From IMG/VR virus record IMGVR_UViG_3300040801_004034, positions 157,293 through 221,292 of that record: DNA of 64,000 bases, one strand, 5' to 3'. The translations under genes and the position numbers were made by a program. This DNA is from a virus. Positions 7,380-62,823 of the stretch are shown one piece after another. Positions within the stretch are counted from its first letter, which is position 1. Every line of letters begins with the position of its first letter. The notes under the pieces were generated by a model, which searched no databases, had not been told where the DNA came from, and saw only the letters and a program-made list of their open reading frames with translations.

Positions 7380-7396
7380 TATTATATCGTTGTTCC
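7380..7396 (-). promoter_or_regulatory. GGAAC-N5-TATAATA promoter
   Basis: GGAAC, spacer AACGA, TATAATA. It ends 5 nt before the ATG at 7374 and starts right after the stop of the upstream gene. Confidence 0.75.
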
Positions 7397-7398
7397 TA

Positions 7399-7500
7399 TT
7401 ATTTTTTACCCTTTTCGTAAATTTCTTTCATTGTTCTTTTACATCCCACACAGTATGTTTTACACCTGCTTAGTTCACATTTTCGAATGCACTGTTTCAT
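7399..7500 (-). CDS. Small Cys-rich protein, DUF1289-like
   Basis: 33 residues with five or six cysteines. The CVGCKRTMKEI stretch matches the core of DUF1289 (CxGCxRTxxEI), a probable small metal-binding motif. The start overlaps the stop of the upstream gene (ATGA), which supports a real gene despite its size. Confidence 0.6.
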   Translation of the reverse strand: MKQCIRKCELSRCKTYCVGCKRTMKEIYEKGKK

Positions 7501-7793
7501 ACATGTCTATCCCAGAATATTCCACCTAACCATAGAAAGATGCATGAACGAGCTGTTTTTCTAATACGGAATTGATTTCTCGATACACGCTCGGTTGAAC
7601 TTGGCGGGAATTTATCGCGAGTTATTTCAAAATTATTCCAAAATATCAGCGGAAGAATTTCCATCCCCGCTTCGATATTACCTTTACTGGTATAGAAATT
7701 AGCAACTGCAGTATTGCGGTTCTTCCAACCATAAAACTCGAACAATTCAATCTCGATAAATCTACCAGACTTCGTTGTAATATTCCACTTCAT
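7497..7793 (-). CDS. Hypothetical protein
   Basis: 98 residues, Trp/Phe-rich, with a hydrophobic C-terminal segment (IFLWLGGIFW) that could insert in a membrane. No family recognised. It follows the gene at 7794 directly and overlaps the DUF1289-like gene. Confidence 0.6.
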   Translation of the reverse strand: MKWNITTKSGRFIEIELFEFYGWKNRNTAVANFYTSKGNIEAGMEILPLIFWNNFEITRDKFPPSSTERVSRNQFRIRKTARSCIFLWLGGIFWDRHV

Positions 7794-8243
7794 TTACTCT
7801 GCTTCTTTTACCATAGCATCAAAGTCAATTGCATTAACAGCATTAACGATGATTACAGGTTCTTTCGTCTTTACACTGATATCTCGTTCAGTAAGAAGCT
7901 TTCTCTTTACGTCTCCCATAGCGTTAGCAATGGTCTCCACTGGAATCTTCATGCCTTTACGTGTGAGATTGTGTTCAGCTGCTGCTTCTTTAATGCGTTT
8001 CACAACATCAACATGCGGAACACTTTCAGGCGTCTGAACAATATACATTGGAATTTCAGCAATGTTTTCATCTTCACTCAATGCAACAATTACGAATTGC
8101 TTCGGCTCTTTTGGGAGAGGCGGCTCTTTTGCTGCTTCTTGTTCAGCTTCTGCTTTGCTGATAATTTCTGCTCGTGTCGGCAAGTCGAGTTGCGGATAAT
8201 CTGCTAGGACGCTTTCGAATATTTCTTTGTCTATTTTTTTCAT
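7794..8243 (-). CDS. Hypothetical protein
   Basis: 149 residues, Glu/Ala/Lys-rich N-terminal third, then an alpha/beta C-terminal region. No family recognised. The GGAAC promoter at 8255-8271 (TACAATC -10) is 11 nt from the ATG, longer than usual. It is divergent from the gene at 8293. Confidence 0.65.
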   Translation of the reverse strand: MKKIDKEIFESVLADYPQLDLPTRAEIISKAEAEQEAAKEPPLPKEPKQFVIVALSEDENIAEIPMYIVQTPESVPHVDVVKRIKEAAAEHNLTRKGMKIPVETIANAMGDVKRKLLTERDISVKTKEPVIIVNAVNAIDFDAMVKEAE

Positions 8244-8254
8244 AAATTCTAAAT

Positions 8255-8271
8255 GATTGTAACACTGTTCC
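8255..8271 (-). promoter_or_regulatory. GGAAC promoter, variant -10 TACAATC
   Basis: GGAAC, spacer AGTGT, TACAATC. Leader to the ATG at 8243 is 11 nt. A late-type plus-strand promoter (8278-8287) lies back to back with it. Confidence 0.6.
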
Positions 8272-8277
8272 TTCTTG

Positions 8278-8287
8278 AATAAATAAT
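8278..8287 (+). promoter_or_regulatory. Late-type promoter (AATAAATAAT)
   Basis: Ends 5 nt before the ATG at 8293. It gives this isolated plus-strand gene a late expression signal inside an otherwise leftward region. Confidence 0.6.
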
Positions 8288-8292
8288 AAAAT

Positions 8293-9787: not shown

Positions 9788-9994
9788 CTAGATCGTTTCA
9801 ATTTCCTGTACGACTTGTTGCTGAACCTTCTTGATTAGATCTTGTTTATCATTTGTGGTATTAATTTGTAGTTGCAAGTAAAAATGATCTTGTTTACGGT
9901 GATCTACCGTAAACTTATCTTCCATCAAAGCATTCACATTTTTGACATGCACAAACCCTGTCTCTGAGATAGTTCTCCAATCAAATTTTCTCAT
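9788..9994 (-). CDS. Hypothetical protein, TAG-terminated ahead of an in-frame zinc-ribbon frame
   Basis: 68 residues: a short beta region then a Gln/Glu-rich amphipathic helix. The start overlaps the thyA stop (ATGA). The TAG at 9788-9790 is followed in the same frame by about 60 codons ending at 9608 that include CGH and CPTC zinc-binding motifs. Confidence 0.55.
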   Translation of the reverse strand: MRKFDWRTISETGFVHVKNVNALMEDKFTVDHRKQDHFYLQLQINTTNDKQDLIKKVQQQVVQEIETI

Positions 9995-10869
9995 ACTGCA
10001 ACCTCCGCCTTGATTGTACCCTGATGATTGTAATCGACGAGCTTCGAGTCTGAAAACTCCCAATCAAATACACTTGTAAAATTATCTGTCTGAAGCGTAG
10101 GCAACGCAAGCGGGCTACGTGACAGCTGTTCTCTTGCTTGTTCCACATGGTTCTCATACAGGTGTAAATCAGCTAGTGAACCACTTAGAACACCTGGTTT
10201 GAGACCTGCTTCTTTTGCTAGCAAATCTAGTAGCAAAGCATACGATGCAAGATTGAATGGTACCCCAAGGAATGTATCACAACTGCGCTGCGTCCAAACA
10301 AGGTCGAGATATTCACCACGCTTCATAACTTGCCAAGAAAAATGACACCATGCAAGTGCTGTATGATCTAGACCGAGAGGATTCCAAGCAGTACAGACCA
10401 TTCGACGACATTCAGGATTGTTATGAAGTCGATAAACAATACTTTTTAATTGGTCAACACTTTGATGACCTTCATTACCGTAATGTCTTGCAGATGGATC
10501 ATGAAAATCTCTCCAACTAGCTCCATAAATACATGGACCGAGATCGTCTTCGGCTTTCATTTTAGCTTTAGTTTCATCATCGTTACCATATAGTACTTTA
10601 TCTGGGTTACACCATTCATCCCAAATCTTACATCCACGATCTTGAAACCATTTCTTAGATGTAACACCTTTAATGAACCCCTCGAGCTCAACCGCCATTG
10701 TTTTAAATGCAAGACGTTTTGTTGTAAGTGCCGGAAATCCTAAACTCATATCATGTTGAATCATACGAGGTGGGATTTTATAAGTAGCTACACCGGTACG
10801 GTTTTGCTGAATGACATCTGTATCAAGAAGGTCTTGAAGAATTTGTAGGTATTGTGTTTCTGCGTTCAT
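9991..10869 (-). CDS. thyA: Thymidylate synthase
   Basis: 292 residues. It methylates dUMP to dTMP with methylene-tetrahydrofolate. Family marks are the N-terminal DRTGV-like NRTGVATYKI segment, the FPALTTKRL loop, ECRRMVCTAWNP (RRxxxxxWNP), the catalytic Cys in LAWCHFSWQV, and CDTFLGVPFNLASYALL. The ATG is chosen 1 nt behind the upstream stop (TAATATG). It follows a DUF5662 gene, as in nucleotide-metabolism clusters of large phages. Confidence 0.96.
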   Translation of the reverse strand: MNAETQYLQILQDLLDTDVIQQNRTGVATYKIPPRMIQHDMSLGFPALTTKRLAFKTMAVELEGFIKGVTSKKWFQDRGCKIWDEWCNPDKVLYGNDDETKAKMKAEDDLGPCIYGASWRDFHDPSARHYGNEGHQSVDQLKSIVYRLHNNPECRRMVCTAWNPLGLDHTALAWCHFSWQVMKRGEYLDLVWTQRSCDTFLGVPFNLASYALLLDLLAKEAGLKPGVLSGSLADLHLYENHVEQAREQLSRSPLALPTLQTDNFTSVFDWEFSDSKLVDYNHQGTIKAEVAV

Positions 10870-10870
10870 A

Positions 10871-11338
10871 TTAATCTTTAAAGTGTTCACGTACGGTATT
10901 TTCCATAATCTGCTTTAGCTGACTATCGATATTGAACCGTTTGCTGTTGATATCCAAACTGGTGCGGATATTACCGTTTTTATTTCGTTGCGTAGCTGCT
11001 TTCCAGTCTGCAAGCATCTCGAGCAAATCGAGGAGTGTCATGTCATTAACACCATTCTCCCAGTGTTCAGGGTGGTGCCGGTTCTTTGCATAGTGGTTGT
11101 CAATAGCAGGTTGTACCTGCTTGAGAAGCTCATCATACTCAGGAGAACCATATTCTGTCTTAGCTAGTTCAGGAGTCTTTTCAGCAAAGATTGCTAGCTC
11201 CGGATCAACAAACTTACTATCATCATGCTTTTGACCACGATCAATCAGATCATGTACAAACAAATTCAGATTCATTTGTACTTGACGGACATGTTTATGC
11301 GTCTCGTTCAGACAGTTTAATGTTTTATTATTGCTCAT
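10871..11338 (-). CDS. DUF5662-family protein
   Basis: 155 residues, His-rich. Motifs HDxSKF at about residues 38-43 and NRHHPEHWENG at about 85-95 match DUF5662, an HD-like all-helical phage family of unknown activity that is presumed to bind metal. It lies directly upstream of thyA. Confidence 0.8.
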   Translation of the reverse strand: MSNNKTLNCLNETHKHVRQVQMNLNLFVHDLIDRGQKHDDSKFVDPELAIFAEKTPELAKTEYGSPEYDELLKQVQPAIDNHYAKNRHHPEHWENGVNDMTLLDLLEMLADWKAATQRNKNGNIRTSLDINSKRFNIDSQLKQIMENTVREHFKD

Positions 11339-11344: not shown

Positions 11345-11524
11345 TCATTCCTTCCGGTTTTGTATCCGACGACGGATAGCAGCTTCAATTCCGTCTTGTT
11401 CATCTGTTAACATTGCTTTAGCGTTATGTAAGATACTTTCAATATCATTTTCATCAAACCATTCTCTATCAACATCTAACCAACCAAGAATGTATTCTGC
11501 AATTTCAAATTTAGTAAATTTCAT
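11345..11524 (-). CDS. Hypothetical acidic protein
   Basis: 59 residues, helical and acidic with a basic C-terminus. Start overlaps the upstream stop (ATGA), which sets the frame. No family recognised. Confidence 0.65.
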   Translation of the reverse strand: MKFTKFEIAEYILGWLDVDREWFDENDIESILHNAKAMLTDEQDGIEAAIRRRIQNRKE

Positions 11525-11799: not shown

Positions 11800-11819
11800 A
11801 CTGTATTATAGAAGTGTTC

Positions 11820-12935
11820 CTACAGATCTTCACGCCCAATGTCAACCATAACCGGAAAACGTGGAATACCATCTGGTGTAAGGTTCTGATATCGAATTGT
11901 AGCAAGCTTACCAATGTATTTGTCTTTGTTAACAAGCAGCTCGGTAAACAATTCATCATTACCACGACCACTAGCTCCAAATTCTTTACCATCTTTTGTT
12001 TGACAAATCAACCGACCCATCATACCTGCACGTCGCCCATTACCTGGTGTGATATCAAGCACTAAAAATTCATCATCATCGAATGCTTTATACTTCTGCA
12101 AATGTTTTGTACGTGTGAAAATATACGGCTCGCTCGGATTCTTCAACATGATACCTTCATACCCATCCTCGATATAACTTGCATGAGCTTCTTCAATTGT
12201 TTCAATTGTCGGCTCGTACATAATATTCTCAACAATCTTAATCATTGAATCAATACCTGCAACTTCCATATGAAGAAACTCTTGACGTTCAATTGTGGTC
12301 ATATCAGGTCGATCTGAATCAAACATATCGAATACATGAAACTGTAACTTGCTTGCTGCTTCAGCTAAGTCAGCTGATGTAGGTTTCTTTTTACGTGTTA
12401 AACTGATTATTTTGTTGAAATCAGTATTGTATTCATGATTATAAATTTCACCATCAAGACGTACTGTTGGAAACTTCTCAAAGAAGCTTCCGAGCGCATC
12501 AAACAAATGACCAAGTGTGAAGTATGGTTTATTATTACGACTTACTGCTTCATTTTTGTCAATGATACACCGTAACCCGTCCAGCTTTGGGGAGATAAAT
12601 ACATGCTTCTCAAGATGCTTAGGTTGATATTTCTGTGCTAGGGTAGGACTAAAGTTTGTCTGTGTATCATCTGGCACATCATCAACATTTTCAACATACC
12701 CTTTATTTACATGGTCATCCCACTGCTTTTGTGCGCGTTCCATCGCAACTGTTTGAGGAGTCTTTTCGTTTGCTTTACCAAAGTTATTTCCTTTAGCATA
12801 GGTCGGTGTACTCGTTGTCGTTTTTCCACCTACCTGACCATACTCGGTCCAGAAATGATCATCTTCCCAGAACATTGTCCAGTGCTGAATACTTCCGTTT
12901 TTATTGCGTTTAAATAGCGTTGGTAAATTTTGCAT
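11820..12935 (-). CDS. ATP-dependent DNA ligase with N-terminal WGR-like domain
   Basis: 371 residues. Residues 10-75 resemble a WGR domain (HFWTEYGQVGG). The nucleotidyltransferase core follows with adenylation motif I KLDGLR (Lys at about 117), motif III RLDGEIYN, motif IV EGIMLK and motif V TRTKHLQKYK, then an OB domain ending with ATIRYQNL. It should seal nicks in DNA. WGR fusions also occur in nucleic-acid repair systems. Promoter 12945-12961 begins inside the rlmN stop codon region. Confidence 0.88.
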   Translation of the reverse strand: MQNLPTLFKRNKNGSIQHWTMFWEDDHFWTEYGQVGGKTTTSTPTYAKGNNFGKANEKTPQTVAMERAQKQWDDHVNKGYVENVDDVPDDTQTNFSPTLAQKYQPKHLEKHVFISPKLDGLRCIIDKNEAVSRNNKPYFTLGHLFDALGSFFEKFPTVRLDGEIYNHEYNTDFNKIISLTRKKKPTSADLAEAASKLQFHVFDMFDSDRPDMTTIERQEFLHMEVAGIDSMIKIVENIMYEPTIETIEEAHASYIEDGYEGIMLKNPSEPYIFTRTKHLQKYKAFDDDEFLVLDITPGNGRRAGMMGRLICQTKDGKEFGASGRGNDELFTELLVNKDKYIGKLATIRYQNLTPDGIPRFPVMVDIGREDL

Positions 12936-13896: not shown

Positions 13897-13908
13897 ACCG
13901 GTATTATA

Positions 13909-14493
13909 TTACAGTTCCAAAATCTTTTTCGATGTCGGTACCCAATCAGGATCAGTTTTCAACTTCATTGAGACTTTACGAAACAAATCAGCTGTTGAAC
14001 CTTGCATTGTTGTTGGTACCGTATCTTGAACGGTCGAAAGACCAAAACTCTCAATCACACTAATGTAAGGTTTCTGTTCACCTTTCCAGTTCGTTGTAAC
14101 ACCAGCAACTCGTACTGCTGGAAATTCACGGCCTATCCAATCATTACGAATATGTGGCTGAACAACAATTGCTGTTCGCATGTATAGTGAGCTGCCGCAT
14201 CGACCAGGGTAGGATATAATTTGTCCTCGTTCAATCGGTTTACTGTATAAATCTGTAATATTATTAATAATTGCTTTTTTTGTTAAAAATTCTACTGCTT
14301 CTTCCATTGTTAGAACCTTTGCATTTTTACCTTTTGGTCTTTGCATTGATTCAATTTTTTCTTGTTCGTTATTATAAAGACATCCTGAGCAAGTCCAACC
14401 CCCGAACATGCCGGGAGGGCATGAACCTCTTCCCTTCGAACATTTTTCAATGTTACCCTCCCGGCAGATACCACCTTGGTGTAAATAAACCAT
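13909..14493 (-). CDS. Cys-rich hypothetical protein
   Basis: 194 residues. The first 45 hold eight cysteines in paired CxxC-like spacing, so a zinc-binding N-terminus is likely. The remainder is alpha/beta with no recognised family. The stop lies inside the GGAAC promoter of rlmN. It is 0 nt from the membrane-protein gene upstream. Confidence 0.6.
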   Translation of the reverse strand: MVYLHQGGICREGNIEKCSKGRGSCPPGMFGGWTCSGCLYNNEQEKIESMQRPKGKNAKVLTMEEAVEFLTKKAIINNITDLYSKPIERGQIISYPGRCGSSLYMRTAIVVQPHIRNDWIGREFPAVRVAGVTTNWKGEQKPYISVIESFGLSTVQDTVPTTMQGSTADLFRKVSMKLKTDPDWVPTSKKILEL

Positions 14494-15540: not shown

Positions 15541-15561
15541 ATGGTAATTATATGATTGTTC

Positions 15562-15933
15562 CTATCCGAAATACGGTTCGCTTTTTTTACTGAAAGGGTG
15601 CATTGCATCCCAATGTTTTTTATATGCTTCAGGATCTTTTTTCTTCATACGTTCTACTTCTTCAGCATATCGCTTCAACGGACGATTTGCAATCTCATTG
15701 AATTCATCCTGTGTAATGTTATTGAGATTGATTTCAATATTTCGTAACTCAGGGCATCCAGTCTGCTCACCGCCAAACCGACGCTGTTCAGCACCTTCAG
15801 GGCTGAGATCGATCCCGTATTTGCAGTCACATGTTGAAGGTTCTTTTTCGAACATCATACCGTCATAACTACATTTCGTGCGGCGAAGCAGATGGATGTA
15901 TTTTCTGAGTGTTTCTATGTCTGTTGTAAACAT
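15562..15933 (-). CDS. Hypothetical protein
   Basis: 123 residues, charged, with four Cys in the first half. Start chosen at MFTTDIE, directly after a TATAATATT -10 that carries the stop of the upstream gene. No GGAAC box at the usual place (GAATCC instead). Confidence 0.6.
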   Translation of the reverse strand: MFTTDIETLRKYIHLLRRTKCSYDGMMFEKEPSTCDCKYGIDLSPEGAEQRRFGGEQTGCPELRNIEINLNNITQDEFNEIANRPLKRYAEEVERMKKKDPEAYKKHWDAMHPFSKKSEPYFG

Positions 15934-16626: not shown

Positions 16627-16643
16627 TATTATAAATGTGTTCC
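16627..16643 (-). promoter_or_regulatory. GGAAC-N5-TATAATA promoter
   Basis: GGAAC, spacer ACATT, TATAATA; 5 nt to the ATG at 16621. Confidence 0.75.
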
Positions 16644-18039: not shown

Positions 18040-18056
18040 TATAATATCGTTGTTCC
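18040..18056 (-). promoter_or_regulatory. GGAAC-N5-TATAATA promoter of Thg1-like gene
   Basis: GGAAC, spacer AACGA, TATAATA; 5 nt to the ATG at 18034. Confidence 0.75.
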
Positions 18057-18614: not shown

Positions 18615-18637
18615 ATAGCTATTATGTTAATGTTCCT

Positions 18638-22596: not shown

Positions 22597-22597
22597 A

Positions 22598-23139: not shown

Positions 23140-23163
23140 ACAGCAATAATAATGATGTTCCTT

Positions 23164-27549: not shown

Positions 27550-27561
27550 AACAGTATTGTA

Positions 27562-27840
27562 TCAATGTTCCTGTTTTAGAATTATACTACCTTTACCCAA
27601 ATCTTTAAACGCCCAATCATATGGTACCGTAACTGTAAATTCTGTTACAACTTTCGGTATATCCTTACCAGAGAACATTTTATCATATAAATGCTTACGA
27701 GTAAACATTCGTTTCGTTTTAATGTTCAACAGGTTAACCCCTTTAGGTGTAGATCGAATACACAAAAATACACTATCTGGTCTACCATATAGGCAGTATA
27801 AGTGTCCGATCTTCAATTTTATGTATTTAATCCGTATCAT
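27562..27840 (-). CDS. Hypothetical basic protein
   Basis: 92 residues, Lys-rich, beta-like N-terminal half. Overlaps the next gene by 14 nt. Its stop sits in the promoter of the coiled-coil gene. Confidence 0.6.
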   Translation of the reverse strand: MIRIKYIKLKIGHLYCLYGRPDSVFLCIRSTPKGVNLLNIKTKRMFTRKHLYDKMFSGKDIPKVVTEFTVTVPYDWAFKDLGKGSIILKQEH

Positions 27841-30172: not shown

Positions 30173-30187
30173 AATTCTATTATAGTA

Positions 30188-30448
30188 TCAGTCTGATGTC
30201 CAATCAACTGTATCATCCAAAGGGTCAAACATTAGCACCCAACCTAAAAAGTCTTCTTCAATTCGTCGTGGTGAACCATAGCTAACCCAATGCTTGGGAC
30301 CGCAGTAATTTTCAACGTAATAACCTGGTTCGAGATCACCTCGTTTGTATTTAGTCCACTTAACTGTTACAGCACAAGCAGTTAGAGATTCTTTATGAAC
30401 TGCAAGATATATACCTTCTCTTAGTAATGGATTAGTTGTTAGTTTCAT
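30188..30448 (-). CDS. Hypothetical protein
   Basis: 86 residues, Trp/Tyr-rich, beta-like. Unknown. Lies 4 nt after the ATP-grasp gene and is probably translated with it. Confidence 0.65.
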   Translation of the reverse strand: MKLTTNPLLREGIYLAVHKESLTACAVTVKWTKYKRGDLEPGYYVENYCGPKHWVSYGSPRRIEEDFLGWVLMFDPLDDTVDWTSD

Positions 30449-31903: not shown

Positions 31904-31920
31904 TATTATATTATAGTTCC
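31904..31920 (-). promoter_or_regulatory. GGAAC-N5-TATAATA promoter of yqeY
   Basis: GGAAC, spacer TATAA, TATAATA; 5 nt to the ATG at 31898. It lies just downstream of a hairpin-rich non-coding stretch. Confidence 0.75.
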
Positions 31921-33489: not shown

Positions 33490-33510
33490 ATCTGTATTAT
33501 ATTATAGTTC

Positions 33511-33729
33511 CTATGACCTAGACCATTTTTGCTGACGAGTAAGCAAGCCATTGTGCTTAGCATTGCGCTTAATCATCTTGAGCTCTTGTTGCCCTTGCTC
33601 AAGTGTGATATCACCATCATGAATACGCTTCATAATTGCAGAACGTACTTCCATTGAATCAGCAATCTCACCACTACTATCAGCTTTGTTTAGTGCACTT
33701 CGCTTTCGTGATCTGGTTTCATCATTCAT
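33511..33729 (-). CDS. Hypothetical basic protein
   Basis: 72 residues, Arg/Lys-rich helices (RSRKRSALNK; IKRNAKHNGLLTRQQKW), could bind nucleic acid. Overlaps the next gene by 4 nt. Confidence 0.6.
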   Translation of the reverse strand: MNDETRSRKRSALNKADSSGEIADSMEVRSAIMKRIHDGDITLEQGQQELKMIKRNAKHNGLLTRQQKWSRS

Positions 33730-35002: not shown

Positions 35003-35075
35003 ATAACTAGTATATGGTAGTTCCTTAAACATGGAGAAACCTTCCATTTCTGAAAGGCCTTTCCGTAAAGCTAGT

Positions 35076-35845: not shown

Positions 35846-35868
35846 GTTACTATTATATGTCTGTTCCA

Positions 35869-36066: not shown

Positions 36067-36089
36067 ATGTATATTATATCAGAGTTCCA

Positions 36090-36531: not shown

Positions 36532-36554
36532 GTCGATATTATATCAAGGTTCCA

Positions 36555-36824: not shown

Positions 36825-36853
36825 GTAATTATTATATCGTGGTTCCGTGAGTG

Positions 36854-37144: not shown

Positions 37145-37173
37145 AACAATATTATATGATGGTTCCAATACGG

Positions 37174-37796: not shown

Positions 37797-37803
37797 ACTG
37801 ATA

Positions 37804-37977
37804 TTATATCGAGGTTCCGAAAAGGTACTCATCATATGCTGCCTCATCAGAAGCTTCATATTCTGCTTTATGTAGTGCAATTTCATAATCTGCTTCATCT
37901 CGCAGAAATTGCGCTGCTTCAGCTGCTTGCCATGTATCAATATATTGATCGCGATCGTGTTCTTCTAGATGTGCCAT
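37804..37977 (-). CDS. Small acidic protein; stop codon inside next promoter
   Basis: 57 residues, very rich in Glu, Asp and Ala, helical. It terminates at TAA 37804-37806, inside the TATAATA of the next promoter, so its last five residues (GTSI region) are encoded by the GGAAC motif. Own promoter 37983-37999. Confidence 0.65.
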   Translation of the reverse strand: MAHLEEHDRDQYIDTWQAAEAAQFLRDEADYEIALHKAEYEASDEAAYDEYLFGTSI

Positions 37978-37998
37978 ACCAATATTATATCAGAGTTC

Positions 37999-38271
37999 CT
38001 AGAGGGAGTTACGTTTAATGCATCCTGCTTGGTACTGAAGACGATCTGTATCTTTCAACCAATTCGCAACGAATGTCTTGAGAGGGTACTCAGCATACAA
38101 TCCATCTTTCCTTCCGCCGATGTGATGAAAGCCATAATGAGCATTCACATCAATACCTTCGCTGGTAAGAAAGTCAAGATGGGTTCCGAGATCCCATTCC
38201 GGATGAATCAGAGTGCTTTGAGCTACCGAAACTTTTGCTAAATCGAATGTCTGTATTTGCGTTTTTATCAT
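37999..38271 (-). CDS. Hypothetical protein
   Basis: 90 residues. GTHLDFLTSEGIDVNAHYGFHHIGG is His-rich in the middle. Promoter 38277-38293. Unknown. Confidence 0.65.
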   Translation of the reverse strand: MIKTQIQTFDLAKVSVAQSTLIHPEWDLGTHLDFLTSEGIDVNAHYGFHHIGGRKDGLYAEYPLKTFVANWLKDTDRLQYQAGCIKRNSL

Positions 38272-38276: not shown

Positions 38277-38293
38277 TATTATATCAGGGTTCC
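38277..38293 (-). promoter_or_regulatory. GGAAC-N5-TATAATA promoter (consensus copy)
   Basis: GGAAC, spacer CCTGA, TATAATA, 5 nt to the ATG at 38271. The CCTGA spacer is the commonest one; 38943-38959 is an identical copy. Confidence 0.8.
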
Positions 38294-38937: not shown

Positions 38938-38969
38938 ACCAATATTATATCAGGGTTCCAATACGGCGA

Positions 38970-39290: not shown

Positions 39291-39321
39291 ACTGCGATTA
39301 TATCAGGGTTCCGAGATGTGG

Positions 39322-39501: not shown

Positions 39502-39522
39502 ATTGATATTATATCGAGGTTC

Positions 39523-39852
39523 CTAGAAGTGATAGAGCGTTGAGCTCTTGTTGTCCTTATCGATGCAATTCGTATGCCAATTGTGCATGTAAGCTGGGGT
39601 ATACTTCTTGCGATGCTCATCGTATTTGTCTTTGCGGCAAATACGCACCTTACCGTAGAAAGTTCCTAGAGCGCCATACCCGCGATCCTTTTGCGTGACT
39701 TTTGTCTTGAACTGTTTGCGATTCTCTTTAAGCCAATCAGTAGCTTCCTTTCTACTCTCAAAGCCAAGATCGTACATGAGGTAGTTCGTATTGCGTCCAG
39801 TGATGCCTTCTGCATAGGCATTTGTATAAGTCATCCAAATAATATATTTCAT
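39523..39852 (-). CDS. Hypothetical protein
   Basis: 109 residues, Tyr/Lys-rich, starting MKYIIWMTYTNAYAEG. The stop lies in promoter 39507-39523. Own promoter 39858-39874 (CCTGA spacer). Confidence 0.65.
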   Translation of the reverse strand: MKYIIWMTYTNAYAEGITGRNTNYLMYDLGFESRKEATDWLKENRKQFKTKVTQKDRGYGALGTFYGKVRICRKDKYDEHRKKYTPAYMHNWHTNCIDKDNKSSTLYHF

Positions 39853-39881
39853 ACAATTATTATATCAGGGTTCCGTGAGGG

Positions 39882-40136: not shown

Positions 40137-40161
40137 ATGGTTATTATATCGAGGTTCCATG

Positions 40162-40671: not shown

Positions 40672-40692
40672 AATCAGATTATATCTAGGTTC

Positions 40693-40884
40693 CTAGACGT
40701 CCAGTCTGTATGCTGTAACTACTAGATCATCGATCTCACTCTCTTTCTGAGCAATTTGCTTCTCTAAATAAGCTAGTGCATCATCAGGTGCATCCTTATT
40801 CATCGCAAGTGTATGATAATATTCATGCAAGATGCTCAATTGTGCCTCAGCATGCTCCAATTTTTGTAGTGGTGTCTTTTCCAT
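40693..40884 (-). CDS. Hypothetical coiled-coil protein
   Basis: 63 residues starting at MEKTPLQKLEHAEAQL; two helices with heptad-like spacing. Promoter 40890-40906 (TATAATG). About 90 nt upstream (40907-40995) hold no gene. Confidence 0.65.
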   Translation of the reverse strand: MEKTPLQKLEHAEAQLSILHEYYHTLAMNKDAPDDALAYLEKQIAQKESEIDDLVVTAYRLDV

Positions 40885-40995
40885 ACCAACATTATATCTA
40901 GGTTCCAAGACATGAAAGGACTCGAGCCACACCACATAACTCGAGTCCCGACCCCCTTGGGTCAACCACCTTTTGCCAACCACGGCACATGAAAA

Positions 40996-41211: not shown

Positions 41212-41223
41212 AATGTTATTATA

Positions 41224-41511
41224 TTACTGTTCCGTTTCAGCAAGACGCTCGTTATATTTTGCAAGAATATGATCTTCAACCCTCTTGTATGAACCCCAGC
41301 AACTTGATGGCACATGATTGTAGATGAATACAATGAGCTTTCTGAGCTCATCACTCTCTTGAGGACAATTATCATATCGTCCGTAAGCACCGAAGAGATC
41401 ATTTGCAAGTACTGCATTGATAAACCCTCCTGGCTCATAACCATTCTCGATATAGTCCATCATCGTCTGAGCAAACCGTTTCGGACACTTGTTGTAATCT
41501 ATTTCAAACAT
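41224..41511 (-). CDS. Hypothetical helical protein
   Basis: 95 residues. The ENGYEPGGFINAVLANDLFGAYGRYD segment matches a recurrent phage/plasmid small helical protein of unknown role. Promoter 41516-41532 (TAAAATA). Confidence 0.68.
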   Translation of the reverse strand: MFEIDYNKCPKRFAQTMMDYIENGYEPGGFINAVLANDLFGAYGRYDNCPQESDELRKLIVFIYNHVPSSCWGSYKRVEDHILAKYNERLAETEQ

Positions 41512-41537
41512 ATATTATTTTATCAGGGTTCCGTCAC

Positions 41538-41774: not shown

Positions 41775-41800
41775 ACTACGATTATATCAGGGTTCCGAAA

Positions 41801-42079: not shown

Positions 42080-42163
42080 ACTATTATTATAAGAAGGTTC
42101 CAAGAATGGAAAGCTGCCAGCTCTTTCGAACTGACAGCCCAAGTCGTTTCCGCCCTCCATTCA

Positions 42164-42710: not shown

Positions 42711-42727
42711 TATTATAAAAGGGTTCC
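42711..42727 (-). promoter_or_regulatory. GGAAC-N5-TATAATA promoter with leader
   Basis: GGAAC, spacer CCTTT, TATAATA. The ATG at 42676 is about 34 nt away, an exception to the leaderless rule; a short hairpin lies in the leader. Confidence 0.7.
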
Positions 42728-43402: not shown

Positions 43403-43425
43403 ATCGATATTATAAAAGGGTTCCA

Positions 43426-43950: not shown

Positions 43951-43995
43951 ACTACGATTATATCTGGGTTCCAAAAAGGCAAAACCATTTAAGAT

Positions 43996-44354: not shown

Positions 44355-44423
44355 ACGGTTATTATATTGTGGTTCCATGCACATATTTAATGTGAACAAC
44401 CGATTAAATATGCATCCATAATA

Positions 44424-44681: not shown

Positions 44682-44702
44682 ACTCAGATTATAAGAAGGT
44701 TC

Positions 44703-45176
44703 CTACCTGTGCTTGACTGCTAATGTAACACTTGCATGATAGTTACAAGGCATGACCTGTACGCTATGTACATTAACTGGCTCGGAAAGTTCCATCCATT
44801 GCTGTAATGCTGGAACTAAATCTTCATTTGGATCATCCCATGTACCTGTATTGATATCAAAGCTGATGTTCACGCTTCTAATTTCGCGATTAGGCTTAGG
44901 TAGTTCTATTTCCTTACCTTGTTCAAAGCGAAGACCATAGCATGATTGCGAAGCAAGAGCAATTGCGATGTCAGCAACATGACCTTTAAATGTTCCAAGC
45001 TGCTTAGTAGTGCGACCTTCACAGTCACCTTCTGTTGTAACCTTCCATATACCTTCTGGAGGACCGACAGTGTCTTGCATTTTGTTCCAGATATCACGCT
45101 GTCGTTCGACAGCACTATCTCGGCGTTTAAGTTCCTGAGCTAGCTGCTCAGATGTAAATTGTTTAAGGCTATCCAT
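44703..45176 (-). CDS. Hypothetical protein
   Basis: 157 residues: charged helical start, then beta-rich region with TTEGDCEGRTTKQLGTFKGHVADIA. No family recognised. ATG overlaps the upstream stop. Confidence 0.65.
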   Translation of the reverse strand: MDSLKQFTSEQLAQELKRRDSAVERQRDIWNKMQDTVGPPEGIWKVTTEGDCEGRTTKQLGTFKGHVADIAIALASQSCYGLRFEQGKEIELPKPNREIRSVNISFDINTGTWDDPNEDLVPALQQWMELSEPVNVHSVQVMPCNYHASVTLAVKHR

Positions 45177-45803: not shown

Positions 45804-45840
45804 GCCTCTAGTATAGAGAGGTTCCAATCCAGCTCAGAAC

Positions 45841-45857
45841 GGAACAGTGATATAATA
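45841..45857 (+). promoter_or_regulatory. Plus-strand GGAAC-N5-TATAATA promoter (ncRNA 1)
   Basis: GGAAC, spacer AGTGA, TATAATA, perfect consensus on the opposite strand to almost all others, with no open frame after it. Confidence 0.75.
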
Positions 45858-45952: not shown

Positions 45953-45969
45953 GGAACTGTGATATAATT
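45953..45969 (+). promoter_or_regulatory. Plus-strand GGAAC promoter (ncRNA 2)
   Basis: GGAAC, spacer TGTGA, TATAATT. The predicted start, about 45975, falls on the first base pairs of a closing stem. Confidence 0.75.
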
Positions 45970-45973
45970 GATG

Positions 45974-46313: not shown

Positions 46314-46330
46314 GGAACCATGATATACTA
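46314..46330 (+). promoter_or_regulatory. Plus-strand GGAAC promoter (ncRNA 3)
   Basis: GGAAC, spacer CATGA, TATACTA. No open frame follows. Confidence 0.65.
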
Positions 46331-46335
46331 GTGTT

Positions 46336-48022: not shown

Positions 48023-48044
48023 AATTGTATTATACCTCTGTTCC

Positions 48045-48593: not shown

Positions 48594-48623
48594 CACTTAT
48601 TATAAGGTTGTTCCTTCTTACAT

Positions 48624-49621: not shown

Positions 49622-49628
49622 AACAACA

Positions 49629-49976
49629 TTATATTAAGGTTCCTGTATGATCGCGGCGTTCATAAATGATAATACCTGCTCTTGTAGCTTCTTTCATCAT
49701 TGAAGCAGTACCCTTGCCTCCAGGAAATAAAACAACAGCATCAGCATATTGTGCCATTTCTCTATTACGAATAGGACCTGCAGCACGCCCATGCTTATCC
49801 CAATCAGCTTTGAATACTTTAATAGGTATACCCTTAGCCTGAGCGAATGCTTCACCACCACGATCTGCTCCTGTTGCACCACCACTCACAACTTCAGTTA
49901 TCAGGAGACTAGATAGGAATTTAACATCGTCATGATTAAGTTGATAATCTCTACCACCTGCAATGATTGTTTTCAT
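49629..49976 (-). CDS. SLOG-family protein (DUF2493)
   Basis: 115 residues. MKTIIAGGRDY start, VVSGGATGADRGGEAFA at about 30-46, FKADWDKHGRAAGPIRNREM at about 55-74 and LFPGGKGTASMM define DUF2493/YspA-type SLOG domains, predicted to bind or cleave nucleotide ligands such as NAD or ADP-ribose derivatives. ATGA overlap with the next gene. Possibly counter-defence, together with the macro domain at 57650. Confidence 0.85.
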   Translation of the reverse strand: MKTIIAGGRDYQLNHDDVKFLSSLLITEVVSGGATGADRGGEAFAQAKGIPIKVFKADWDKHGRAAGPIRNREMAQYADAVVLFPGGKGTASMMKEATRAGIIIYERRDHTGTLI

Positions 49977-50815: not shown

Positions 50816-50827
50816 ATAGTGATTATA

Positions 50828-51028
50828 TCATTGTTCCACTGCTTGGCGAATAGCTTGTCTAAACACCCATTCATCACTAACTTCAGTACTATCGAGTGGT
50901 GGATAACTTATTGTACGTTGAATATAACCTTCTTCATTTACCCAACTGAGATGACCACATTTATGTATATCAATCCGCCATGTTTCAAGATTCTCAGCTA
51001 CCCATTTAATCATTTCACTATCTGTCAT
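50828..51028 (-). CDS. Hypothetical protein
   Basis: 66 residues starting at MTDSEMIKWVAENLETW; Trp-rich helices. Promoter 51035-51051 (spacer AATAT). Confidence 0.65.
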   Translation of the reverse strand: MTDSEMIKWVAENLETWRIDIHKCGHLSWVNEEGYIQRTISYPPLDSTEVSDEWVFRQAIRQAVEQ

Positions 51029-51128
51029 TACACTTATTATAATATTGTTCCTACACTGAATATTCTTCACCTGATTTCACATCTTCAACATTCACCACAT
51101 CTATTTGAACCTAGTATTACTTATATTG

Positions 51129-54572: not shown

Positions 54573-54600
54573 ACTATGATTATATCGAGGTTCCTTCACC

Positions 54601-56162: not shown

Positions 56163-56189
56163 ATGTTTTTATTATACGGTAGTTCCTCG

Positions 56190-57259: not shown

Positions 57260-57289
57260 AAGGATATTATAGTATTGTTCCTTTCAGGA

Positions 57290-58641: not shown

Positions 58642-58688
58642 AGTAACAGTATTTAATCCACTCACCATAATAGTTTTGAACTGCTGTA

Positions 58689-58877
58689 TTAAACTGACTT
58701 GAGATATTCGCTGATGTAACAGCATTCAATCTCAAAATCTTTACGTGATTTGCATACGATGCTTTGTTCGTATACAATCTCATCATTATTTTTAACAATG
58801 ATTTTTGGGTGTTCATCCGCACACTGATACGAATATTCATTCCCGTTCATCACAATGTCAAATTTTGTATTTTCCAT
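58689..58877 (-). CDS. Hypothetical protein
   Basis: 62 residues, beta then a Cys pair (IECCYI). Unknown. Confidence 0.6.
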   Translation of the reverse strand: MENTKFDIVMNGNEYSYQCADEHPKIIVKNNDEIVYEQSIVCKSRKDFEIECCYISEYLKSV

Positions 58878-58897
58878 ATGTTATGTTATTTTTGTTA

Positions 58898-59050
58898 TTA
58901 TTTACTACGGTTTGAATTGATATCTTTATCAATTTTTTGCGTAACTTTAACTCCGACATGCTCATTAAACACAAGCGGTCCATAAGACCTCCCCATTGTT
59001 TTACCAGCATTCATCACTTTTGTTCTTCCTTTTAGGGTTCGTTTTGCCAT
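58898..59050 (-). CDS. Small basic protein
   Basis: 50 residues, Lys/Arg-rich start (KRTLKGRTKVMNAGKTMGRS). May bind nucleic acid. No GGAAC promoter. Confidence 0.58.
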   Translation of the reverse strand: MAKRTLKGRTKVMNAGKTMGRSYGPLVFNEHVGVKVTQKIDKDINSNRSK

Positions 59051-59085
59051 AAGTTAATTTCTTCTATTTTAGTATACGTTTTTAT

Positions 59086-59376
59086 TTAATCAACTGGTTC
59101 ATCTGAGTACCATTCCAATTTTTTGAATTCTGATATACGCATTGAATGCTCTTTGACTATTTTACGGTTAGCGTCTAGTTCAGTGAGCAGACACCAATTT
59201 TCTTTGATATCTCGCACTATATAAAAGAAGCATTTCTCGCTTGGATCGTGTTCGAACGGGTTGTAATGATAGTTTTTTACTAACCGTGTTTGACCAACTT
59301 TAACAAGGTTTCTTTCCTCTTCTTCTTGAAGATTATATGTACACCAATTAGTAAACTTATCCCAAATCTTACCCAT
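59086..59376 (-). CDS. Hypothetical protein
   Basis: 96 residues, aromatic and charged, ending in a Tyr/Trp/Asp stretch. ATG next to the GNAT stop. Confidence 0.62.
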   Translation of the reverse strand: MGKIWDKFTNWCTYNLQEEEERNLVKVGQTRLVKNYHYNPFEHDPSEKCFFYIVRDIKENWCLLTELDANRKIVKEHSMRISEFKKLEWYSDEPVD

Positions 59377-59819
59377 TACATTGCCTTACGTTTCTTCTTA
59401 AGAATTTTATCAGTTACATTTCCATTACGGGTAACACCTGCTTTGTTGAAAAATGACTGATTACCACTGTGTTCAAAAACACTAAGTCGTTTCTTCTTTG
59501 ACACAATGAATGCTTTTTTAAGCATTGCTGTTGCAACACCTTTTCGACGATAACGTACTAGTGTATAGCATTGATATTCTGTATTGAAATCTGTATAAAC
59601 AATCGCCCATCCGACTAGATTTGTACCATTATGCGCAACAATCACAAACCCGTTTCTTTCAATGATCTTATCTTCAAGAGTATCGGCCATCAACCCATCA
59701 CCTCTCACTGTATTGTCAGCAACACGACCGCTGTTGAAATTATTACGCTTACAAAACATCTTAATATCGTCAGGAAGGTTTTGTGTCTTCAAATTGTATG
59801 TTTTTGTATATGTTCTCAT
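59376..59819 (-). CDS. GNAT-type acetyltransferase
   Basis: 147 residues. The acetyl-CoA motif A VRYRRKGVATAMLKKA at about 92-107 (R-x-x-G-x-A pattern) and the preceding LVGWAIVYTD strand define the GNAT fold. Substrate unknown; protein or RNA-base acetylation is possible. Confidence 0.7.
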   Translation of the reverse strand: MRTYTKTYNLKTQNLPDDIKMFCKRNNFNSGRVADNTVRGDGLMADTLEDKIIERNGFVIVAHNGTNLVGWAIVYTDFNTEYQCYTLVRYRRKGVATAMLKKAFIVSKKKRLSVFEHSGNQSFFNKAGVTRNGNVTDKILKKKRKAM

Positions 59820-60274
59820 TCGTAGTAATCTGGAATTAGTTCGATGTTTGAATTAAAGCACAATGGTGAACCCATTGAAATATATTCACCGAATATGCTC
59901 ATAAGATACCATAATTGAAACTTCGACCATCCATCTTCATCCACTTTTGGTGTACTGATTTCACTAACTCGTAGATATTTTGAATGATGCTGTATGTATT
60001 TTCCAATACCATACTCTGTGAGTTTCACTCGCACATCATGATTGATGTTGAATTCATTTTTTTCCGGCTTGTTCATGACAGCTACTCTATGCGCTTGTCG
60101 TGTAACCTTTTCGAAATCATTAATTTCAACTCGAACAGATTTATCTGTCATTGATATGATTTTACCTTCTTGTGGAAATACACTACCGTACTGTGTAGGA
60201 GATGTCATACATACAACAGTATCTCCTACATACATTTTTATTCCTTTATGATCTTTAAGATATTTTACACTCAT
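59816..60274 (-). CDS. Hypothetical protein
   Basis: 152 residues starting at MSVKYLKDHKG; beta-rich first 80 residues (KMYVGDTVVCMTSP...) resemble a KOW/SH3-like barrel. Overlaps the next gene by 20 nt. Confidence 0.62.
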   Translation of the reverse strand: MSVKYLKDHKGIKMYVGDTVVCMTSPTQYGSVFPQEGKIISMTDKSVRVEINDFEKVTRQAHRVAVMNKPEKNEFNINHDVRVKLTEYGIGKYIQHHSKYLRVSEISTPKVDEDGWSKFQLWYLMSIFGEYISMGSPLCFNSNIELIPDYYE

Positions 60275-60509
60275 TTGTTTGTTCTTGTTCGTATGATTCT
60301 GGCCACTTATTATAATGTTGTTCCATTTCTTCTGCTGCTGAATAGGCAGTAACGATAGCACATTCGATTCCACCAGCAACAGGTTCGAGAAAATCTTTAT
60401 GTAGATAGTTAGTCTTCGCCATCATCCGAAACTCATGACGGATATCAGACAACTGATCGCGTAGTTCATGAATACGTTCATGTTGTTTTTTGAATTTTTC
60501 TTCACTCAT
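60255..60509 (-). CDS. Hypothetical helical protein
   Basis: 84 residues, charged helices with a GGIECAIVTAYSAAEEMEQHYNKW segment. Unknown. Confidence 0.65.
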   Translation of the reverse strand: MSEEKFKKQHERIHELRDQLSDIRHEFRMMAKTNYLHKDFLEPVAGGIECAIVTAYSAAEEMEQHYNKWPESYEQEQTNECKIS

Positions 60510-60739
60510 ATTCTTTATGCACTGTTGTTTTCGTTTTATACATTTTAGTACCCATAACAGATTCTAGATAGTCGTTTACACACATCTGAGCCGTTGAGAC
60601 GTTCAAATCTCATCCCAAATTGTTCTTCTTCATTTAACATACCTCCATACTTTCGTACTTTGGTTAACCGTCGTGATAACTCATCACGCATGCTTTCAGC
60701 CTGTTCAAGTTTTTGTTTAAGTTCTTCTACTTCGCTCAT
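60502..60739 (-). pseudogene. Frameshifted small gene
   Basis: MSEVEELKQKLEQAE onward is a coiled coil, then a GG pair near 60597 appears to carry one extra base. Removing it joins the frame to MCVNDYLESVMGTKMYKTKTT and a stop that overlaps the next gene's ATG. The uncorrected frame ends at a Tyr codon with an unlikely tail. Indel error or mutation. Confidence 0.6.
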
Positions 60740-60742
60740 ATA

Positions 60743-61081
60743 CTATTTTGGTTTGTTTGTTGTGAAGTAATATGGATCGTTTAATATCTCAAAATCATAT
60801 TTGGTTACAAGACTACCTTCTACAAATGGTTTCATAGAGTATGTACCGTCTTCATTCTTGAAAAACTCGACACCGTCTTTGACTCTATAGATAACATCTG
60901 AACCTGGGTGTAAAGTGTGCGGAAACAAAACATAATAACCATGATTCAAAAACACTCCTTGGAACCGTTTTATATCACTCTTTGTGGCAGCTTTTTCACC
61001 CATAACATGCTCAAACATCACATCATCACAAGTAAAGTGGTCAACATTGAGATCACTTTTTCTAAGTTTTAACTCATTCAT
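60743..61081 (-). CDS. Hypothetical protein
   Basis: 112 residues, starting MNELKLRKSDLN, ending with EILNDPYYFTTNKPK. Alpha/beta. ATG overlaps the upstream TGA. Confidence 0.65.
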   Translation of the reverse strand: MNELKLRKSDLNVDHFTCDDVMFEHVMGEKAATKSDIKRFQGVFLNHGYYVLFPHTLHPGSDVIYRVKDGVEFFKNEDGTYSMKPFVEGSLVTKYDFEILNDPYYFTTNKPK

Positions 61082-61286
61082 ATACACTACCTTTCTGTCC
61101 TGGTTCGTTACTATTTGTACAATCTAAATTATGATCACTTGCATGAGGACAACGCTTGTTACCACATTTCGGGCATAAGATCATCTGTGCTCGATTTAGC
61201 GGAATAACCCAACCATGTAAATCATATACAAGCTTATGCTCTTCGATACACTTATGACAAATACACTGTTTATTTTCTTGGACCAT
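61074..61286 (-). CDS. Zinc-ribbon protein
   Basis: 70 residues with several CxxC pairs (CICHKC, CPKCGNKRCPH), a likely zinc ribbon. Overlaps the upstream gene by 17 nt. Confidence 0.68.
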   Translation of the reverse strand: MVQENKQCICHKCIEEHKLVYDLHGWVIPLNRAQMILCPKCGNKRCPHASDHNLDCTNSNEPGQKGSVYE

Positions 61287-61560
61287 ATGGAGTTGAATCG
61301 AGTCTCATATCCCAAAGCTCATCAGAACGCTTATAACCAAGCTTCATTGCTTCTTCAACAGAATCAATTTCGTCGAAGATTTCAGATGCTGATGTTGCTA
61401 AGCAATACTTGTTTGGATCACGACCAACACTTGCATCCATAACAGTCTCTTGCTTACGGATCGTCATGTAGAACGTTTTGTAGTCCTTACATTCCCAAAC
61501 ATTAAACTCACCTAACTTGATAAACTTCTTACGAGTTGGATCTGATGATAATTTGCTCAT
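61270..61560 (-). CDS. Hypothetical protein
   Basis: 96 residues, charged with beta start (KFIKLGEFNVWECKDYKTFYMTIR). ATG overlaps the upstream TAA (TAATG). Confidence 0.62.
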   Translation of the reverse strand: MSKLSSDPTRKKFIKLGEFNVWECKDYKTFYMTIRKQETVMDASVGRDPNKYCLATSASEIFDEIDSVEEAMKLGYKRSDELWDMRLDSTPYGPRK

Positions 61561-61730
61561 TAGTTGTAACGTACGTTTTGTTTTGTTGATTGAAAAAGTA
61601 ATTCAAACGTTGCTGGTTTCTTCCAATTTTGATATGGTATTGATGGAAACTTGCGTCTTTTTTCACAATACTCGATAAGGTCCTCCTTTTTAATAAAGGT
61701 TTTCCTCTTATCATCGCCGTTTGAATTCAT
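61560..61730 (-). CDS. Small basic protein
   Basis: 56 residues starting at MNSNGDDKRK, Lys-rich, set by promoter 61736-61752 (GGAAC, -10 TATCATT). A longer frame over the same bases in another reading is rejected. Confidence 0.62.
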   Translation of the reverse strand: MNSNGDDKRKTFIKKEDLIEYCEKRRKFPSIPYQNWKKPATFELLFQSTKQNVRYN

Positions 61731-61754
61731 ACAGCAATGATAAGAGGGTTCCGA

Positions 61755-62756
61755 TTACGCTACCTTAGTTAGCTCGATCGCACGAGCTCCTCGCTCGATC
61801 GTTTCAGCAAACTTATCTTCTTGCGTTACAACATCCCAGAACTGAATCTTACCAGTACGGCCAATTCCGAACTCACTCGATACGAATTGGATAGCCTTAT
61901 CAGCTCCGAAACCTCGTGTAGATGAATGTGTGTAGTAATCAGTTACTGCACTGAACGCATCTGCGACTGTTTCACCGCGGTTACCAGCACCGTTCTGGAA
62001 GAGATCCATCAAATGACCGATCCGATTGGTGCTGCGTGTACTTACACCCTTTTCAAGATCCTTCATGCTCTTATGACGAAGGACAAACCCTGTGAACAAC
62101 CGTTGAGTATCACCCTCATTGATCTTCTGACTATGAAGAATGTCGAACTGCTTGCGGAAATGCTCCTGCGTTCCAAGATATGCATCAAGAGCTTTGCTCA
62201 TATCAACAATCTTTTCATCCATATTACCACGGTGAACTGCTTTTGCAACTGCGCCGGTACGGAAGTTGTATGTAAATGTGTTATCACATACAGTGCAGAC
62301 ATTTGTGTTGTTGACCCAGATCGTTGAACTTTGATCGTGTGAATTACCGAAGTTCAGAAAGTCATTAAATGTACGACCACCTGCTTGGAACGTATCATGA
62401 CCTTTGATCTTAACCGTGACGAACACTCGACCACGATTACAAACACTACCAACACTCACAACTTCAGCGCCTTTAATAGCATCTATTGCTGAACGAACCA
62501 GATCAAGAAATGTCGCATTGGTAACTGGTTTGTATGTTTTAGTCATCGGACGACCGATTGGCATACAATCATCAGTTGCGACGATCATATCAAATTCGGT
62601 AGGCTCTCCACCTGGAAGGTAAAGACCACGACGATCAATATCCCACTCTGTGAGCCAATTATTATTGACATCAATTGTATCTTCAACTTCTGTCAAGCCG
62701 TGCCATGCTTGTTTGACACCTTGTTGTTTATCTCTTGCTGTTATATTATGACTCAT
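61755..62756 (-). CDS. DUF932-family protein
   Basis: 333 residues. QAWHGLTEVEDTI near residue 18, MTKTYKPVTNATFLDLV at about 80, and NFGNSHDQSSTIWVNNTNVCTVCDNTF with the HRGNMDEKIVDM region match DUF932 (phage/plasmid protein TIGR03299), often beside replication or host-takeover genes. Promoter 62807-62823 is about 50 nt away, a leader; an AAATAAT box lies nearer the ATG. Confidence 0.82.
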   Translation of the reverse strand: MSHNITARDKQQGVKQAWHGLTEVEDTIDVNNNWLTEWDIDRRGLYLPGGEPTEFDMIVATDDCMPIGRPMTKTYKPVTNATFLDLVRSAIDAIKGAEVVSVGSVCNRGRVFVTVKIKGHDTFQAGGRTFNDFLNFGNSHDQSSTIWVNNTNVCTVCDNTFTYNFRTGAVAKAVHRGNMDEKIVDMSKALDAYLGTQEHFRKQFDILHSQKINEGDTQRLFTGFVLRHKSMKDLEKGVSTRSTNRIGHLMDLFQNGAGNRGETVADAFSAVTDYYTHSSTRGFGADKAIQFVSSEFGIGRTGKIQFWDVVTQEDKFAETIERGARAIELTKVA

Positions 62757-62806
62757 TGTATTATTTGTTTGTGTTAATTTTATTGTGCTTATCACTTCTA
62801 TTCCCC

Positions 62807-62823
62807 TATTATAAGAGTGTTCC
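62807..62823 (-). promoter_or_regulatory. GGAAC-N5-TATAATA promoter of DUF932 gene
   Basis: GGAAC, spacer ACTCT, TATAATA. About 50 nt to the ATG at 62756. Confidence 0.7.

Follow-up and report, generated by a model that had tools for sequence, protein, structure and literature searches.

The 64,000-nucleotide stretch analyzed here (the window; positions 157293-221292 of the 221,292-bp virus record IMGVR_UViG_3300040801_004034, which is T4-like and labelled G000) carries many copies of the motif GGAAC-N5-TATAATA, most of them directly in front of start codons. We hold with good confidence that this motif defines a sigma-70-type class of phage promoters in which a GGAAC box replaces the -35 element, that these promoters are placed on the start codon, and that they form one of three classes with this placement.

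Abundance and anatomy of the GGAAC promoters

Exact copies of the motif occur 31 times in the window (30 on the minus strand and one on the plus strand), and none arose across 100 dinucleotide shuffles of the window. With up to one mismatch the count rises to 54, and with up to two mismatches 72 sites are found where 8.9 are expected. A first-pass annotation of the window had claimed more than 50 copies, which holds once one mismatch is allowed, and all of the 28 left ends that it listed are present, those at 18040 (TATTATA) and 27555 (TACAATA) with one mismatch. An equal frequency in shuffled sequence was among the outcomes that it had named as refuting, and as a check it had proposed a motif search in the whole genome and in relatives. 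This search returned 55 copies of GGAACN5TATAAT in the full 221-kb record, against none of the reversed pattern, and 1-31 sites in each of 21 of the 21 motif-bearing related records tested (the reversed control gave none in 20 of them and one in the other). The annotation also called the motif genome-wide. The copies are concentrated at 124-148 kb on the plus strand, a region of tRNAs, transfer-messenger RNA (tmRNA) and small genes, and at 164-220 kb on the minus strand, where small genes follow one another through the whole window, so the motif is regional and not evenly genome-wide. The underlying observation is confirmed, and the annotation understated the case for it.

Information profiles drawn from 70 G000 sites and from 239 other sites on 29 other viral contigs give the layout AAGGAAC-TCTGA-TATAATA-N4-T-ATG, the position before the ATG being mostly T. 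Counting the A of the AUG as +1, the -10 hexamer TATAAT is located at -12 to -7, as a sigma-70-type promoter has it, and GGAAC spans -22 to -18, which corrects the value of about -24 given previously. Neither logo shows conservation at the -35 position or any signal at -30, where a MotA-type TGCTT box would be centred. A TG at -15/-14 is enriched but not general (T in 127/239, G in 147/239), amounting to a weak extended -10. The annotation had placed TATAATA 4-6 nucleotides (nt) before the ATG; of the 70 sites, 42 have a distance of exactly 5 nt and 6 others one of 4 or 6 nt. The codons 5-7 nt past TATAAT in G000 and eight relatives comprise 171 ATG, 2 GTG and 1 TTG. The 5-nt spacer described as invariant proved to be so, since among the TAYAAT sites at leaderless spacing in G000 the box stands solely at 5 nt (42/42), and in the relatives the spacer is also 5 nt, barring three single exceptions.

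GGAAC in place of the -35 element

For comparison of the -35 regions, every TAYAAT located 5-6 nt before an ATG was taken, irrespective of whether GGAAC was present. The 5-mer at the GGAAC position was GGAAC in 42/90 of these sites in G000, 25/29 in the relative G001 and 17/38 in the relative G013. The sites that lack GGAAC have a canonical TTG at -34 to -32, and TTGW at the -35 distance is found in 37 of 92 non-GGAAC promoters versus 6 of 152 GGAAC promoters (Fisher P = 8e-13), while control windows shifted upstream yield 1-5. The GGAAC class thus has a TTGACA-like -35 with a 16-18 bp spacer at background level, and GGAAC, described earlier simply as an unusual upstream element, stands in for it. 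The promoter of the open reading frame (ORF) at 29837-30172, which lacks GGAAC, illustrates the contrast (30179..30207, minus strand; TTGATT, a 17-nt spacer, TATAAT, 6 nt, ATG). Genes for a gp44-like clamp loader, gp32, UvsX, gp43, gp55 and dUTPase, assigned from PHROG hits, from inspection by eye or from a gene order resembling that of T4, belong to the TTGW/TATAAT-only class. The GGAAC class serves short accessory genes, with a median length of 77 amino acids (aa) versus 162 aa for the TTGW/TATAAT-only class.

Late promoters and the predicted leaderless layout

The structural genes have a third type of box, T(T/A)AAATA, 5-6 nt before the ATG and with no -35. In the window, TAAATA is located on the minus strand at 2872..2877, 5 nt before the ATG of the gp20 portal gene (1103-2866), and at 4090..4095, 5 nt before the GTG of ORF 2909-4084. 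The TTAAATA box of the portal gene is kept in front of 40 distinct orthologues, and G000 encodes a homologue of gp55, the late sigma factor of T4 (phrog_234, E = 1.2e-22). When the starts of G000 are aligned, there is a sharp maximum of TATAAT at -12 (26 genes) and one of TAAATA at -11 (33 genes), and the relatives examined show similar peaks. A promoter at leaderless spacing is present at 49% of G000 starts (ORFs of at least 100 aa) versus 7.7% of internal ATGs, and at 0/45 starts in a T4 stretch. Shine-Dalgarno-like words precede 7% of the starts and 8% of internal ATGs, compared with 70% of the starts in the T4 stretch. Little or no leaderless layout and no GGAAC motif were found in stretches of C48C1, Melnitz, S-SRM01, P-SSM2 and RM378; the -12/-11 peaks are confined to the clade of G000, and the six other T4-like phages tested, including T4, lack the layout. 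The sequence therefore gives good support to the earlier claim that the promoters sit on the start codon and that dozens of mRNAs would be leaderless, and extends it, as the late promoters are placed likewise and Shine-Dalgarno words are at background.

In the mechanism that we propose, the GGAAC box at -22 to -18 would substitute for the -35 element beside a -10 of the form TGnTATAAT, and transcription would begin on the A of the AUG, giving a leaderless mRNA that would be translated as such. Three classes placed on the start codon would divide the genome, GGAAC/-10 promoters serving small accessory genes and the tRNA and GOLLD region, TTGA -35/-10 promoters the replication and core genes, and gp55-type TTAAATA promoters the structural genes. 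Because of the genes that it serves, the GGAAC class is probably early.

GGAAC promoters in the window

On the minus strand, exact copies 5 nt from the ATG precede ORFs 6931-7374 (147 aa; promoter at 7380..7396), 12952-13896 (314 aa, radical-SAM-like by eye; 13902..13918), 31443-31898 (31904..31920), 33304-33489 (33495..33511), 35869-36066 (36072..36088), 36346-36531 (36537..36553), 36555-36824 (36830..36846), 37999-38271 (38277..38293), 38449-38937 (38943..38959), 39523-39852 (39858..39874), 40996-41211 (41217..41233) and 57044-57259 (57265..57281). The same arrangement precedes ORFs of 227 aa (16627..16643), 55 aa (35851..35867), 96 aa (37150..37166), 28 aa (37802..37818), 57 aa (37983..37999), 59 aa (39507..39523), 84 aa (40142..40158), 92 aa (42085..42101), 112 aa (43408..43424), 58 aa (44360..44376) and 105 aa (48028..48044).

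Copies with one mismatch, also on the minus strand and 5 nt from the ATG, belong to ORFs 14809-15540 (15546..15562), 17198-18034 (Thg1-like by eye; 18040..18056, TATTATA), 18198-18614 (18620..18636), 27214-27549 (27555..27571, TACAATA), 38970-39290 (39296..39312), 40162-40671 (40677..40693), 41538-41774 (41780..41796), 44424-44681 (44687..44703), 49361-49621 (49627..49643) and 50609-50815 (50821..50837), and to ORFs of 63 aa (40890..40906), 174 aa (43956..43972) and 173 aa (54578..54594). At the same spacing and on the same strand, TATACTA is found before ORFs of 92 aa (35008..35024) and 64 aa (45809..45825).

Other spacings on the minus strand are 4 nt for ORF 11521-11799 (92 aa; 11804..11820, exact), for a 60-aa ORF (48598..48614, exact) and for ORF 41224-41511 (41516..41532, TAAAATA), 6 nt for a 66-aa ORF (51035..51051, exact) and 7 nt for ORF 55908-56162 (56170..56186, exact). 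The exact copy at 62807..62823 lies upstream of ORF 61755-62795 (346 aa, DUF932-like by eye), the in-frame ATG being located further downstream than usual. Two more exact minus-strand copies have no ATG at the usual spacing, one at 42711..42727 and one at 60308..60324, within the mechanically called ORF 59816-60379.

Promoters without an ATG and non-coding RNAs

Three ATG-less GGAAC promoters are located on the plus strand of the window, at 45841..45857 (exact, divergent from the gene array), 45953..45969 (one mismatch) and 46314..46330 (one mismatch). In the region 45841-46700 they head non-coding stretches, with a putative non-coding RNA downstream of the first; the first two promoters have a similar arrangement in G001, and their two putative transcripts resemble ones there (shared AGCCC-AGGGGTTGG). 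The putative transcripts of this region have no Rfam match and possibly represent a new phage non-coding RNA. Outside the window, four tandem GGAAC/GAAAC promoters without the usual ATG, some with an added TTGA -35, are found at G000 142,401-142,612, and downstream of them lies a GOLLD RNA (RF02032, 179 bits; G000 143,025-143,472) that contains a tRNA-Tyr. That such promoters precede the GOLLD RNA indicates that the motif acts as a promoter and not as a translation signal.

The surrounding region, at 124-144 kb of G000, holds about 39 tRNA genes, one of them called as tRNA-Pyl(CTA), and a tmRNA gene (tag GENQLMAA). At G000 147399-148259 there is a relative of phage DNA guanine transglycosylases (49% to that of Flavobacterium phage immuto, with others known in Campylobacter phages), which together with a QueC-like gene, recognized by eye, suggests 7-deazaguanine DNA. 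Core genes at 21311-23625, 38653-41562 and 58091-59666 of G000 (clamp loader, terminase and the gp41/primase region) look interrupted by eye, the apparent interruptions being inteins and homing genes of the HNH/GIY-YIG type.

Related viruses

A scan of IMG/VR with the full motif identified at least 117 stretches, many of which carry 3-8 sites, and the portal protein has relatives on at least 575 contigs; these are divergent. Common to the large members are gp23, gp20, gp43, UvsX, gp46/47 and gp55, at about 45-70% identity to G000. Megablast found no close cultured relative in the phage collection, the best portal matches being at about 30% identity, and in pairwise comparisons only, the G000 portal shares 25% identity with that of RM378, 26% with T4 and 34% with P-SSM2. 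One relative, G006, had seemed not to be T4-like because its last 20 kb has no match to G000, but relatives of the sheath, terminase and clamp loader show that it is. Like the Far-T4 phages (PMC4360716), these are uncultivated aquatic T4-like viruses, but at these portal identities a place in the Far-T4 clade, where gp23 and gp20 group with RM378 and Lake Pavin contigs, is no more than possible. The report on Far-T4 phages makes no mention of promoters (PMC4360716), and the published host guesses for that group are Flavobacteriales and others (PMC7198788, PMC13037479).

Sigma factor genes and the probable host

In the 221-kb G000 record, which may be incomplete, there is no Pfam match to sigma-70 region 2 or 4. 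The search for a phage sigma gene outside the window that the first-pass annotation had recommended thus yielded the gp55-type late sigma factor but no full sigma-70. Three relatives encode a full-length sigma-70 with regions 2 and 4, namely G006 (L106, 9983-10885), G011 (30743-31906) and G015 (about 9990-11200). In a tree of 20 sigma proteins, which left out Planctomycetota, Bacteroidota and others, the three phage sigmas and those of Verrucomicrobiota form one group, supported at 99/100, to the exclusion of Proteobacteria, Bacillota, Spirochaetota and Patescibacteria.

This grouping with Verrucomicrobiota RpoD is one of three weak to moderate lines of sequence evidence that the host probably belongs to the Verrucomicrobiota. 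Another is a phage-like contig that was placed in the bin of an Opitutae genome and carries a site matching the consensus perfectly. The third is a protein of G015 with a twin-arginine translocation (Tat) signal (L016 5955-7376) that resembles DUF1501 proteins by eye and is possibly host-derived. Tat-exported DUF1501 proteins are common in Planctomycetota and Verrucomicrobiota. Starts with Shine-Dalgarno words are scarce in some of these bacteria (small samples: 6% in the Opitutae genome G022, 0% in G032, 44-46% in two other members), and a survey counts Verrucomicrobia among organisms in which such sequences are scarce (PMC10783764). The portal gene was found in none of 388 Verrucomicrobiota genomes, which is uninformative because lytic phages are seldom binned.

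GGAAC as a promoter of the host itself was considered and rejected, as an 18-base version of the motif gave 24 single matches in GTDB, scattered over phyla, and GGAACN5TATAAT occurs at chance-like counts in 28 genomes. Saccharibacteria, which looked enriched at first with 4 of the 24 GTDB matches, were likewise rejected; they use leaderless TATAAT, but GGAAC does not accompany it, and the phage sigmas fall outside the group of their RpoD. The pattern TATAATN6ATG, compared with its reversed control, is abundant in two Saccharibacteria (G023, 88 versus 6; G024, 110 versus 15), a member of the Clostridia (G423, 46 versus 1) and Treponema (G027, 69 versus 17), which suggests that these bacteria have many leaderless genes.

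The reader of the GGAAC box and alternative explanations

The asymmetry of the box and its rigid spacing point to a reader attached to RNA polymerase, and the box is the same in viruses with and without a phage sigma. The first-pass annotation, whose interpretation is on the whole partly supported, had expected a phage-encoded or redirected host sigma factor in this role. A contact by the host sigma factor or core enzyme has, in our estimate, close to an even chance of being that reader, and a factor supplied by the phage or the virion may be it with a chance that is appreciable but short of even. No ECF (extracytoplasmic function)-type sigma region 4 was found over the cut-off in ten records. 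The alternative that we take most seriously, and which may well be correct though we would not bet on it, is a version of our own reading that differs in the reader: GGAAC would be bound by a phage activator that replaces sigma region 4, as MotA/AsiA do in T4. The TTGA class would then be immediate-early, and the GGAAC genes would be expressed later, as delayed-early or middle genes. In T4, a MotA box and a -35 box seldom occur in one promoter. The GGAAC box and the -35 TTGA likewise exclude each other, the TTGA class resembles an ordinary host promoter, and GGAAC promoters are not in use in the candidate host genomes, which suggests that the phage supplies the reader. However, the box at -22 to -18 falls within the spacer, some 10 bp away from where a MotA box would be, and is non-palindromic, the genes behind GGAAC promoters resemble small early genes of the classical kind, and no candidate activator was identified, no search having been aimed at the MotA/AsiA families. 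That the promoters are read by a full-length sigma-70 encoded by the phage is improbable. G006, G011 and G015 do encode such a protein, but the 221-kb G000 and the large records G012, G013 and G020, which may be incomplete, have the same form of GGAAC promoter without one. Moreover, the G015 sigma gene itself sits behind a GGAAC promoter, so that the GGAAC promoters there are probably read before the sigma is made.

Three further explanations concern the nature of the motif. GGAAC might be an operator, overlapping ordinary extended -10 promoters, at which a repressor or shut-off protein of the phage binds, and the recurrence of one box at a constant position in so many promoters does look like a global switch; yet this does not predict the loss of the -35 in exactly the GGAAC promoters, and a 5-bp asymmetric site with rigid spacing is unusual for a repressor, which makes it quite unlikely. 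We consider it very unlikely that the motif is a translation signal in the 5' untranslated region of RNAs whose transcription starts further upstream. The fixed distance from start codons would suit it, but TATAAT is a perfect -10, the replacement of a -35 makes no sense for an RNA signal, ATG-less sites precede the GOLLD RNA and the putative non-coding RNAs, and the late genes keep the same ATG register with a different box and no GGAAC. Hardly any weight is left for the view that duplication of a single promoter-gene unit gave rise to the sites. Many sites at 36-45 kb do share GGAACCCTGA or GGAACCTCGA, but flanks and N5 vary freely, the logos contain no conserved flanks and none could be aligned across sites, and the same box is found in divergent viruses before unrelated genes.

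Several observations count against the reading of GGAAC promoters as an early, leaderless class replacing the -35 element. The gene classes and timing labels are deduced from gene content. About half of the mechanically called starts have no recognized promoter, so that genes inside operons must be translated in some other way; close or overlapping upstream genes account for part of these starts (47/125), and mis-called starts perhaps for another part. In 15 Verrucomicrobiota genomes TATAAT-N6-ATG showed no general enrichment (113 versus 88 in the control), and the candidate host genomes lack GGAAC promoters, from which it follows that the host may not be rich in leaderless genes and that the link to it is indirect. 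The broadest version of our proposal, a widespread T4-like lineage probably infecting Verrucomicrobiota, with three leaderless promoter classes and a polymerase-attached, possibly phage-encoded factor that reads GGAAC in the spacer, is put forward as tentative, at a little below even confidence.

Comparison with known promoters

One close counterpart is the middle promoter of T4 (MotA box and -10), in which a phage element likewise replaces the sigma-70 -35 while TATAAT is kept, and T4 also has a separate late class read by gp55. The middle promoters differ in having a TGCTT-type box near -30 instead of GGAAC at -22 to -18 with a fixed 5-bp spacing, and in that the promoters of the G000 type are placed on the AUG. 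The late promoters of T4 (gp55/gp33, TATAAATA) resemble those of G000, which has a -10-only TTAAATA box at its late genes and encodes gp55, but in G000 only 5-6 nt separate the box from the AUG, whereas the T4 stretch tested has no TAAATA at a leaderless position. Extended -10 promoters also lack a -35 and have the TG at -15/-14 that is enriched here, but not the additional GGAAC that in G000 invariably precedes the -10 by 5 bp. The -35 boxes of ECF sigma factors carry the same five letters, GGAAC. Nevertheless, an ECF promoter was rejected, as its box lies about 16 bp from the -10, while the spacing here is fixed at 5 bp and the -10 is TATAAT. Also rejected were a sigma-54 promoter (GG-N10-GC at -24/-12), since the sites have TATAATA and no GC at -12; a Shine-Dalgarno role for the GGA, which at 17-22 nt from the AUG is too distant; and a coding explanation, since (M/L)EP.YN..M can be read through the motif in some ORFs but others have in-frame stops (CCC TGA), and since the TATAAT is exact. 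Bacterial leaderless promoters, for example those of mycobacteria (PMC3898074), have the -10 hexamer about 6 nt before the AUG and no Shine-Dalgarno sequence, but here an entire lineage of viruses is organized in this way, in its sigma-70-type and gp55-type promoters alike. We found no description of a GGAAC phage early promoter in the literature searched, and a fixed GGAAC box in place of the -35 appears to be undescribed.

Implications

Leaderless mRNAs are usually regarded as exceptions in phages. Here, in many viruses related to T4, promoters of all three kinds (early-type, core and late) coincide with the start codons and the Shine-Dalgarno sequence is gone, which makes the lineage a natural test of a lytic programme without leaders. 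With this layout, operons and the exact position of start codons can be predicted from the sequence, and GGAACN5TATAATAN5ATG can serve as a marker for the lineage and its hosts in metagenomes. If GGAAC in the spacer truly substitutes for the -35, it would add a new element to those known from promoters, and its reader could be the object of a direct search.

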